A stretch of 34,794 nucleotides of DNA from an uncultured Clostridia bacterium (GTDB lineage Bacteria > Bacillota > Clostridia > TANB77 > CAG-465). The DNA lies in assembly GCA_944388565.1 (NCBI GenBank), contig CALXJG010000007.1:1-34794 (forward strand). The letters run 5' to 3'. The position numbers and the translations under genes were made by a program. The notes below the pieces were generated by a model. That model made no database searches, was not told where the DNA came from, and worked only from the letters and a program-made list of their open reading frames with translations. Below, piece by piece: positions 26,427-29,370 of the stretch (position 1 is the stretch's first letter; each line of letters opens with the position of its first letter).

Positions 26427-27059
26427 ATGTCTTTATTAAAAAAGTTTGGGAAAGTAACATATATATTTGTAATAGTTTTACTTATGTGTACTTTTTTACC
26501 ATTAAATAAACAAATTATGGCAGAAAGTACAGGTCTTATTGTATCTGGTCCAAGTGTTATTCTTGAAGGTCAAGATGCAGTATTTACAATACAATATAAT
26601 TCAAATGTAAAAACTGTACTTTTATCAGAAGGAGACATTATTTTAAATGGTTTTACAGCAACAAAATATATTTCTGGTAGTGGTAATAAAAGAACGGTTA
26701 CTTTGAAAAATATTAGTGGTACAGGAGATAACAAAACTATAACTATTGCAGCCGGTTCTGCTATCTTAAAAGATGGAACTGAGACTAAGGCTCAAGTATC
26801 TAATATATTTAAAATTAATAAAGCTATACAAAATACTAAACCCAATAATGGTACAAATGTAAGTAATAATACTCCAAATAATAGTAATAATACAAATAAC
26901 AATAACAATAACAATAATAATAATGATAATAATAACAACAATAATAACCAAACAAATAGTAACGAAGAAAACAATCAAACTGAAAATAACACAGAACAAA
27001 ATACAAATAATAATGGTCGTCCAGATGATTGGATTCCTAATCCAAATACGGGAAAATAA
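26427..27059 (+). CDS. Secreted Ig-like protein with Asn-rich tail ending in NPNTG
   Basis: This 210-residue protein has a signal peptide (1-32, cleavage near IMA-ES), a beta-rich Ig/cadherin-like domain (about 36-130), then an extremely Asn-rich linker (about 137-200), and ends with WIPNPNTGK. NPNTG (205-209) fits the (N/S/P)PxTG motif cut by clostridial class B sortases such as that of C. difficile, and a class B sortase gene follows 24 bases later. But no hydrophobic helix or charged tail follows the motif, which usual sorting signals require. No other frame restores one. It is therefore an unusual substrate, or a tethered partner, of the next gene. The exact domain family is not recognised. 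Confidence 0.78.
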   Translation: MSLLKKFGKVTYIFVIVLLMCTFLPLNKQIMAESTGLIVSGPSVILEGQDAVFTIQYNSNVKTVLLSEGDIILNGFTATKYISGSGNKRTVTLKNISGTGDNKTITIAAGSAILKDGTETKAQVSNIFKINKAIQNTKPNNGTNVSNNTPNNSNNTNNNNNNNNNNDNNNNNNNQTNSNEENNQTENNTEQNTNNNGRPDDWIPNPNTGK

Positions 27060-27083: not shown

Positions 27084-27821
27084 ATGATTAATCTAAAAAA
27101 GAGAAGAAATACTAGAATTTTAATCATATTAATATCAATTTTTGCAATTGCTTTAATTGGATTTTTAATAACATTTTATTTTACAATAAATTCTGGAAAT
27201 GAAACTCAGGAACAAAATAATGAAAATGAACAAACACAAGGTGCAATAAGAAATCTACAAGAAGAAACAATAGCTCTTAATAAACAGTATAATGATGTTG
27301 TGGGATGGCTTAGAATATCAGGTACAAGTATTGATACAGCAATATATCAAGCAGATAATAACGATAGATATTTAAGAAATGATAAAGATAATAAAGAAAC
27401 AAGATGGGGAGAAAATTTCTTAGATTATAGATGTGATATAAATAAAATTAATGAACCAATGCAACATTATATAATTTATGGACATAATACAGAAGTAGAT
27501 ACTAGATTTACACCATTATTTAATTACAAAGATGAAGAGTTCTTTAAAAATCATCAGAATATAGAATTTTCAACATTAAATGGAAATTATAAATTTCAAA
27601 TATTTGCTACATACTCTACAAATACAGATTTCTTTTATATAGATACAAATTTTAAAGATATTAATGAATATGAAAGTTTTCTAAATTCTTTAAAAGCAAA
27701 AAGTGAGTATAACACAAATGTAGAAGTTACAAAAGATGATGTTATATTAACACTTTCAACATGTGATTATTCAATAGAAAATGGAAGATATGTAGTACAA
27801 GCCAAACTTATAAAAGAATAA
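27084..27821 (+). CDS. srtB: Class B sortase
   Basis: Class B sortases anchor specific proteins to peptidoglycan. The 245-residue protein has an N-terminal membrane anchor (about 10-32), a linker rich in Gln, Glu and Asn, and the class B domain: NDVVGWLRISGTSIDTAIYQ, YLRND, the catalytic His in IIYGHNT, the extra helix before the Cys strand (DINEYESFLNSLKAKSEY), the catalytic Cys in LTLSTCDY and the Arg in GRYVVQA. AAGGAGG is ten bases upstream. It is cotranscribed with the NPNTG protein, its obvious candidate substrate. Confidence 0.95.
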   Translation: MINLKKRRNTRILIILISIFAIALIGFLITFYFTINSGNETQEQNNENEQTQGAIRNLQEETIALNKQYNDVVGWLRISGTSIDTAIYQADNNDRYLRNDKDNKETRWGENFLDYRCDINKINEPMQHYIIYGHNTEVDTRFTPLFNYKDEEFFKNHQNIEFSTLNGNYKFQIFATYSTNTDFFYIDTNFKDINEYESFLNSLKAKSEYNTNVEVTKDDVILTLSTCDYSIENGRYVVQAKLIKE

Positions 27822-27827
27822 TATTAT

Positions 27828-27921
27828 AAATAAGCAAAAAGTTAAAATGTAATATAAAAATACGAATATAATTTTATATAAAGCGTATAAATATTACATA
27901 AAATTGACTTTTTGCTTATTT
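27828..27921. repeat. 94-nt imperfect palindrome downstream of srtB
   Basis: A perfect 15-base arm (27828-27842 with 27907-27921) encloses a second stem ATGTAATAT/ATATTACAT (27847-27855 with 27891-27899), then ATACG/CGTAT and TATAA/TTATA at the centre. The whole region can fold on itself. It may be an extended terminator or a miniature mobile element. The right arm contains part of the next promoter. Confidence 0.7.
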
Positions 27922-27932
27922 TATGTTATAAT
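27904..27932 (+). promoter_or_regulatory. Sigma-A promoter of the high-G+C gene
   Basis: TTGACT (27904-27909), 17 bases, TATAAT (27927-27932). Its -35 box and most of the spacer lie in the right arm of the 94-nt palindrome. Confidence 0.65.
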
Positions 27933-27940
27933 AATAGTAT

Positions 27941-28027
27941 GAGATATATTTTATATCTCTTGATAAATAATCAAGAGAAGACTACTGAACAAAAATTTGT
28001 TGGTGTTTTGTAGGCTTTTCTTTTCAT
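27941..28027 (+). other. Structured 5' leader with tandem hairpins
   Basis: Three features follow the promoter: GAGATATA/TATATCTC (27941-27948 with 27952-27959), TCTTGAT/ATCAAGA (27958-27964 with 27970-27976; it overlaps the first by two bases), and an imperfect stem around ACTAC and GTAGG followed by CTTTTCTTTTC. The overlap means the first two hairpins partly compete. The last looks like an attenuator. No known riboswitch class is recognised. Confidence 0.45.
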
Positions 28028-28060
28028 ATATACAACAAAATTATTACAGGGGGAAGAAAA

Positions 28061-28876
28061 ATGACTAAGATGAGCAACTGGCTTTCGGCCCACGCATTGG
28101 CGGTTTTTGTGGCAGTTTTTGCTGCGATTATCGTAACATTTACAATTGTCATCTCGACAATCGTAAATGGTTATGAGGCGAGAATTTCTGAACTTGAGAG
28201 CAAAATCTCTGGTTTGGAAAGTGCTTACGAAGAGCTGGAAAGCTCTATCGGCGAGCGGTTCTCTACTCTTGAAGGCAGAGTAGAATCTGTCGAAAAGACT
28301 GTTTCTAACCTTGAAAAGTCTGTTCAGAAGCTTGAAGAAGCTGATGAAAAGATGGTCAAGGAAATGGAAGAGATTACTAAGATGATTTCTAATATTAAGG
28401 TCGAAGCTGAGGCTGAGGCTGAAGTTGAGGAAACATCTTACGAGGAAGACAACTACGAAGAGTCTTATAACGAGCCGGCTTGGGTTGGTTCTTCTGAGGC
28501 TCCCGTAGTCACGGATATCTCCTCAGCTGTTGAGAAGATTGAAACTCAGGAAACTGAGGACAATGCTTCTTACGAAGCTGAGATGGAAATCCGTGAGAAA
28601 ACTCAGGAAGAGGAAATCACATCTGATGATGTGGTTGTAATTCCTGAGGAACCTGCGGAACCTGAAGCTGTTGAAGAAACAGTTTCTGAGCCCGAAGTCG
28701 TTTCTGAGACAGTTGTCGAAGAGTCGGAAGAAGGCACCATCGAAATCTCCGGTGGAGAAATCGATGGTGGAGAGATCGATGAAAGTCTTGACGAATACGA
28801 TTGGGACAGTGCTCCCGTCGTAGGAGTCGGAGACGACGGTTCTATGGAGGTCGTTTCCGTAGAGCTGGATATGTGA
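28061..28876 (+). CDS. Membrane-anchored coiled-coil protein with long acidic tail; atypical base composition
   Basis: I do not recognise this 271-residue protein. It has one membrane helix (about 12-35), a heptad coiled coil (about 37-115, IxxLExxIxxLE pattern), and an acidic, low-complexity tail rich in Glu, Val and Ser, with GGEIDGGEIDESLDEYDWD near the end. Base composition differs sharply from its neighbours: 29 of 60 bases are G or C at 28081-28140, against 12 of 60 at 27601-27660. It ends in TGA, the only such stop among the complete genes I call here, and uses codons such as GAG and CTG that are rare nearby. GGGGGAAG precedes the ATG. Its own host-like promoter suggests it is expressed. 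Likely horizontally acquired; function unknown. Confidence 0.8.
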   Translation: MTKMSNWLSAHALAVFVAVFAAIIVTFTIVISTIVNGYEARISELESKISGLESAYEELESSIGERFSTLEGRVESVEKTVSNLEKSVQKLEEADEKMVKEMEEITKMISNIKVEAEAEAEVEETSYEEDNYEESYNEPAWVGSSEAPVVTDISSAVEKIETQETEDNASYEAEMEIREKTQEEEITSDDVVVIPEEPAEPEAVEETVSEPEVVSETVVEESEEGTIEISGGEIDGGEIDESLDEYDWDSAPVVGVGDDGSMEVVSVELDM

Positions 28877-28908
28877 CAGCCAAAAACCATATATGTAAAA
28901 GAAACGCC

Positions 28909-28946
28909 ATCACATTGAGAGCGAACCTTTGGTTCCCCGTTGTGAT
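28909..28946 (+). other. Nested hairpin in the 3' region of the high-G+C gene
   Basis: ATCACA (28909-28914) pairs with TGTGAT (28941-28946), and inside GAACC (28923-28927) pairs with GGTTC (28931-28935) around TTT. It lies between the stop codon and the terminator, within DNA of the same raised G+C. A conserved 3' RNA element is possible. Confidence 0.4.
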
Positions 28947-28963
28947 ATTTGTCCCTTTTGGGA

Positions 28964-28998
28964 AATACATCCTTACAATTAGTAAGGGTGTATTTTTT
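28964..28998 (+). terminator. Terminator of the high-G+C gene
   Basis: A 13-base-pair stem (28964-28976 with 28982-28994, one G-U pair) and a T-run. It isolates the gene from spoIIAA downstream. Confidence 0.85.
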
Positions 28999-29064
28999 GT
29001 ATCTTTTTCAAATTTCTACAATTTTCTTTTTTATTATATGTTATACTTTATTTGAGGTGGTAAT

Positions 29065-29370
29065 ATGAGGTATAAATATGAGGACGGAAATTTGAATTTA
29101 AATTTAGATGAAGAATTAGATATGAAGTCTTGTAAACTACTTAGAACTGTCATGGATGGGTACATAATGAAATATCAACCAAAGGAGTGTATAATAGATC
29201 TTAGTGAAGTTAAGTTTATGGATAGTAGTGGTATAGGACTTATATTAGGTAGATACAATTTATTAAAATTAATAGACTCTAAAATGACTATAATAAATCC
29301 AAGTGGTAGTGTAAAAAGATTATTGGAAGTTTCTAATATTTCAAATAATATAACTTTGAGGTGTGAGTAA
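29065..29370 (+). CDS. spoIIAA: Anti-sigma-F factor antagonist SpoIIAA
   Basis: Dephosphorylated SpoIIAA binds SpoIIAB and frees sigma-F in the forespore. The 101 residues form a STAS domain with the signature FMDSSGIGLILGRYN; Ser 54 is the equivalent of the Bacillus phosphorylation site. GAGGTGG lies upstream. No good sigma-H or sigma-A promoter is evident between the preceding terminator and this gene, only a weak TATACT near 29043. The stop codon lies one base before the spoIIAB start, so the two are coupled. Confidence 0.95.
   Translation: MRYKYEDGNLNLNLDEELDMKSCKLLRTVMDGYIMKYQPKECIIDLSEVKFMDSSGIGLILGRYNLLKLIDSKMTIINPSGSVKRLLEVSNISNNITLRCE

Follow-up and report, generated by a model that had tools for sequence, protein, structure and literature searches.

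The locus between the sortase gene and spoIIAA

The DNA analyzed here is a 34,794-nt stretch (the window) from an uncultured Clostridia bacterium. A forward-strand open reading frame (ORF) of 271 amino acids, ending in TGA and carrying a GC-rich coding sequence that is predicted to be hyper-folded (28061–28876), lies in it between a sortase gene (27084–27821, forward; PF04203, Pfam E 1.1e-10) and spoIIAA (29065–29370, forward; STAS domain, Pfam E 9.4e-15). An earlier note on this DNA had placed the ORF at the spot where dacF often precedes spoIIAA; the upstream neighbor is instead the sortase gene, as it is in the nearest relative (G023, described below), and at 18 of the other loci examined in the genus the sortase gene is directly followed by spoIIAA, with dacF absent. 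Just upstream of the sortase gene, a secreted Asn-rich protein of 210 amino acids with NPNTGK at its end (26427–27059) is probably the substrate of the adjacent sortase.

A long A+T-rich inverted repeat (27828–27921; arms 27828–27845 and 27904–27921) that probably serves as the terminator of the sortase gene overlaps the −35 box of a sigma-A promoter (27904–27932, forward), and both elements are conserved in G023. The promoter scan (11 of 12 matches) returned TTGACT-17-TATAAT with an extended −10 element, in keeping with the host-like promoter described in the earlier note. Downstream follow a leader with two predicted hairpins (27941–27959 and 27974–28021; leader 27941–28021, forward) and a strong Shine-Dalgarno sequence, AGGGGGAAG (28048–28056, forward), which is predicted to be more open than the coding region (unpaired probability 0.61 over −18 to +9 vs. 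0.36 in the coding sequence). An intrinsic terminator comprising an 18-pair stem and a T run (28959–28999, forward) stands before spoIIAA. Judged by these signals, the ORF is a single-gene transcription unit with its own promoter and terminator.

The encoded protein (pI 4.05) has the layout that had been proposed for it, namely a transmembrane helix (residues 12–36; 28094–28168, hydropathy 3.0), a coiled coil (residues 37–112; 28169–28396, with 16 of 22 a/d heptad positions hydrophobic), and an acidic tail of 159 residues with a net charge of −52 (residues 113–271; 28397–28873), all read from the forward strand. An AlphaFold2 model built from a two-sequence alignment (mean pLDDT 66) contains one helix over residues 5–124, which takes in the membrane segment and reaches a pLDDT above 90 mid-helix in the coiled coil, a tail that is disordered for the most part, and, at its C-terminal end, a small beta hairpin located at the motif DWDSAxxVGVxDD, which is common to this protein and its one clear homologue, in G023. 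By the positive-inside rule, the product is probably a single-pass membrane protein oriented N-in/C-out. A PDB sequence search gave no match, defence-system models gave generic coiled-coil matches only, no maturation, coat, lysis, or replicase family was found among the Pfam and PHROG matches, and an Rfam search at the ORF matched no family, so that rRNA, tRNA, and other Rfam RNAs were rejected for this gene. A transmembrane helix adjoining a coiled coil is also found in phage XhlA/haemolysin and Rz-like spanin-type proteins, to which there are weak PHROG and Pfam matches; however, the Pfam matches fall below the curated cut-off and are typical of any coiled coil, and the protein differs in its long acidic tail and in having no lysis cassette nearby.

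Composition and predicted folding of the message

The G+C content of the ORF is 45% and its GC3 is 0.43, compared to genome means of 26% and 0.14. The rise that had been noticed in sample windows, from about 20% just upstream of the ORF to 48%, was confirmed (150-nt windows reach 48%), and the shift extends beyond the stop codon, up to the terminator at 28999. A codon-usage check likewise upheld the claim of differing codons: ATA, TTA, and CAA are absent, CAG is used in 3 of 3 cases, AAG in 82%, and TAC in 71%. The TGA stop is indeed unique among the 33 window ORFs of at least 100 amino acids, although it is a weak sign by itself because 66 of 996 longer ORFs genome-wide also end in TGA. Codon bias linked to high expression was rejected as a cause, given that the genes for EF-Tu, GroEL, and ribosomal proteins have a GC3 of 0.09–0.14.

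The predicted folding energy of the coding sequence is −39.0 kcal/mol per 120 nt, vs. −26.9 ± 1.0 for synonymous shuffles that keep the protein and the codon counts unchanged; when codon-junction dinucleotides were also fixed, the sense strand retained a z of −11.1. Both halves of the ORF are over-folded (z −5.3 and −6.7), and z across shuffle runs ranged from about −9 to −11. In one run of the same test, the ORF scored −9.4, a set of 25 E. coli genes averaged −1.0 ± 1.4, and MS2 genes lay between −7.5 and −14.4, so that the predicted degree of coding-RNA folding equals that of MS2. Local hairpins throughout the reading frame are likewise a feature of Fiersviridae coding sequences, including those of MS2, and of GORS in RNA viruses; unlike the Fiersviridae, the ORF is a chromosomal DNA gene with a sigma-A promoter and has no replicase, coat, or maturation homology. 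Literature searches of partial coverage on hyper-folded bacterial coding mRNAs returned nothing matching.

Synonymous shuffles were also applied genome-wide, since a scan corrected for GC by a quadratic term absorbed too much of the signal. Among 1201 ORFs of at least 100 amino acids, covering the genome except for about 30 kb (contigs C72–C80 and a few contig ends), the three most over-folded were C35:2663–3043, ORF 28061–28876, and C1:71126–71962, each with a GC3 of 0.41–0.43; across the whole set, GC3 and folding showed no general correlation (rho −0.04). Some other strongly folding regions of the genome were tRNA clusters, rRNA, or ORFs with collagen-like repeats. The latter (G000:C44:6257–7087 and C22:803–1675) encode proteins with collagen-like Gly-Pro-Thr repeats, and their DNA is likewise strongly folding.

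Relatives and other over-folded genes

The nearest relative, G023 (Clostridia bacterium STD2_186, public record JAQUWH010000005.1; 843 kb of genome covered), carries a homologue of 380 amino acids, 34% identical, in the same slot between sortase and spoIIAA and with a G+C content of 45%. Because this independently assembled genome has the same gene order, an assembly chimera was rejected. Across promoter and 5′ leader, the two genomes share 80% identity; the leader has a fold z of −2.3 and its G023 counterpart −2.9, and a comparison limited to these two sequences gives six compensatory and five broken pairs. Proteins of the flanking genes are 67–92% identical, whereas their four-fold sites are only 35–66% identical, meaning that silent sites around the ORF have largely turned over. 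Given this turnover, a gene brought in from outside should have shed a large part of its G+C and of its hairpins, and a neutral foreign gene would be expected to show a much reduced GC3; GC3 has nevertheless stayed at about 0.4 in both copies, and recent import of the ORF is improbable. The earlier note had read the ORF as a foreign insertion and had named vertical inheritance with the same composition in all relatives as the outcome that would speak against this; that composition was found in G023, the one relative carrying the gene. Foreign insertion is accordingly not the best reading of a syntenic homologue with the same odd composition, a conserved promoter and leader, and turned-over silent sites on either side.

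The lineage-specific character of the gene, also claimed earlier, is well borne out: of 287 genomes from the order, only the present one and G023 have the full-length family. Homology searches of phage and plasmid records gave no match, and pattern scans of viral contigs and genome contigs found no relative beyond the G023 record itself. Elsewhere in the family (loci L010, L011, L015, L023, L034, and L037), the sortase–spoIIAA slot holds unrelated, often GC-raised, repeat-rich surface-type proteins, and the slot is therefore variable over longer time scales.

Several other genes share the predicted folding. At G000:C35:2509–3080 (L002, L101), a 126-aa ORF with two transmembrane segments lies between genes for an acyl-CoA ligase and a GerW/YtfJ-like protein. 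This ORF (C35:2663–3043), the most over-folded in the genome, has near-perfect predicted hairpins through its coding sequence, and the gene region has a predicted folding energy of −239.5 kcal/mol over 581 nt. Its leader is a 31-pair hairpin (z −8.8 here and −8.6 in G023), in which three compensatory and three broken pairs separate the two sequences compared. At G000:C1:71126–71962 (L138), a 278-aa ORF with a GC3 of 0.41, a predicted over-folded mRNA, and a weakly DUF2802-like N-terminus has a relative in G027 (L139) that is 43% identical, with a GC3 of 0.28 and no over-folding (z 0.1). The gene at C46:4472–5047, between metK and a P-type ATPase gene, is more mildly over-folded than the top three. 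It belongs with L148:7778–8416 to an orphan family that occurs as tandem copies in G009 and G028; of the 287 genomes from the order, 26 contain matches to it. In G023, the syntenic homologues of ORF 28061–28876 and of the C35 and C46 genes are all GC-rich and over-folded relative to their own shuffles (the three z values, in no set order, are −8.3, −3.5, and −5.9), while protein identity between the copies at the three loci is only 32–37%. G023 also contains a GC-raised, single-gene chromosomal unit (L188:10424–11263) for a 279-aa protein that has a C-terminal Tad4 (type I Thoeris inhibitor) domain and resembles Bacillus phage proteins over 81 residues. Because the C1 and C46 products are proteins of other kinds, the cause of the folding probably lies at the RNA level and is not protein-specific.

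Strand comparisons point the same way in part. The antisense strand of ORF 28061–28876 has a z of −4.7, and the strand asymmetry is −11.3 against an expected −6.4 ± 0.7 (about 7 SD); an excess of sense over antisense was also observed in the C46 gene and in the unrelated gene occupying the slot in G014, while two of the seven genes tested (G023_C7 and G023_C35) showed little or none. Pooled over eight genes, GNRA loops numbered 10 on the sense strand and 0 on the antisense strand, vs. 4.3 ± 1.5 in shuffles, and tetraloops numbered 41 vs. 26 ± 5. In most of the eight, the ribosome site was predicted to be more open than the coding region (the start used for G023_C35 in the loop and start-region test was probably annotated too far upstream). 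Strand-specific loops, an open start, and paired changes in the leaders point to selection on the mRNA, insofar as predicted structures can be trusted. Antisense strands are nonetheless over-folded as well (z −4 to −6 in most genes of the class), which leaves room for a mutational contribution. G-U pairs make up 14% of stems in ORF 28061–28876 and 7% in the C35 gene, whose stems are nearly perfectly Watson-Crick.

Origin of the folding and its possible role

The reading we favor, at about an even chance and on predicted folds, is that ORF 28061–28876 is a long-resident, fast-evolving, lineage-specific gene whose message is selected for dense hairpins. A strong sigma-A promoter would transcribe the gene alone. 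Selection on the whole message, including its coding region, would favor closely packed local hairpins but leave the ribosome binding site relatively accessible; the elevated G+C and unusual codon choice would then be mainly a by-product of folding selection and not the trace of a foreign donor. Pairing leaves part of the G+C excess unexplained, because GC3 at unpaired sites is 0.32 and thus still above the host value. Other points against the folding reading are that the gene is present in only two species, that the G027 relative of the C1 gene lacks the folding, that antisense strands are over-folded too, and that the class encodes unrelated proteins, so that no single protein function fits. 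On the modeling, selection acting on how the mRNA folds is the likeliest source of the excess G+C.

Horizontal import from a phage, plasmid, or other donor of moderate GC into a permissive, repeatedly refilled slot, with the donor's composition retained, would account for the unpaired-site GC3, for the absence of the ORF from the 18 congeners, and for the unrelated GC-raised genes found in the slot of other relatives; an autonomous single-gene unit and the Tad4-domain gene of G023, a domain common to Bacillus phages, are also compatible with it. We nevertheless consider it unlikely, as the homologue in the same slot with its conserved promoter and leader amid turned-over silent sites speaks for long residence, the sequence searches yielded no mobile relative, and a donor's composition leaves unexplained both a z of −11 at fixed codon counts and GNRA loops confined to one strand. 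The over-folded antisense strands, the near-perfect C35 stems, and the very fast protein divergence could alternatively reflect mutation at the DNA level—that is, template switching by which inverted repeats become perfect in genes that change fast under weak constraint, with no function for the folded RNA. Such a process predicts neither the raised GC3 nor the sense-strand excess over expectation in three genes (ORF 28061–28876, C46, and G014), and the G-U content of the ORF, the loop excess on the mRNA strand, and the open start region also argue against it, making it quite improbable.

A structured RNA that does a separate job besides encoding the protein is the explanation to which we assign very little probability: RNA-phage-level predicted folding and a structured leader with compensatory changes would suit a bifunctional RNA, but no Rfam family was matched, the coding-region hairpins show no obvious correspondence to those of G023, and the proteins keep recognizable homology and topology, which implies that translation matters.

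If selection for hairpins is accepted, its benefit may lie in message survival. Compaction would prolong or protect the mRNA and so keep up the supply of an envelope protein that is abundant and evolves fast; we regard a long-lived or nuclease-resistant message giving steady output of an envelope spacer or scaffold as a tentative suggestion that leans toward doubtful. It is drawn by analogy from RNA phages, whose compact coding RNA protects their genomes, and from designed mRNAs, in which coding-region structure alters functional half-life upon mammalian delivery (PMC6883848). The product of E. coli lpp, Braun lipoprotein, is a small helical, coiled-coil-forming envelope protein. A long-lived message for such a protein is the feature of lpp that the proposed role recalls, lpp and ompA having been called “the two long-lived E. 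coli mRNAs” (PMC3014915). In the same test, however, over-folding of the lpp coding region is slight (z −2.2), there is no homology, and the protein of ORF 28061–28876 has no lipobox.

On a wider scale, it is conceivable, if doubtful, that some bacterial chromosomes keep a few single-gene units with RNA-virus-like mRNA folding over species-level divergence, an unrecognized class in which selection for compact RNA—serving message survival, escape from nucleases, localization, or packaging—drives base composition and mimics horizontal transfer. An unusual G+C content is commonly taken to indicate such transfer, a reading that fails for ORF 28061–28876, whose composition seems to be linked to how its own message folds. 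If this is true, the gene would offer a natural bacterial test case for the effects of coding-region mRNA structure and would serve as a warning against calling such GC-atypical genes foreign.
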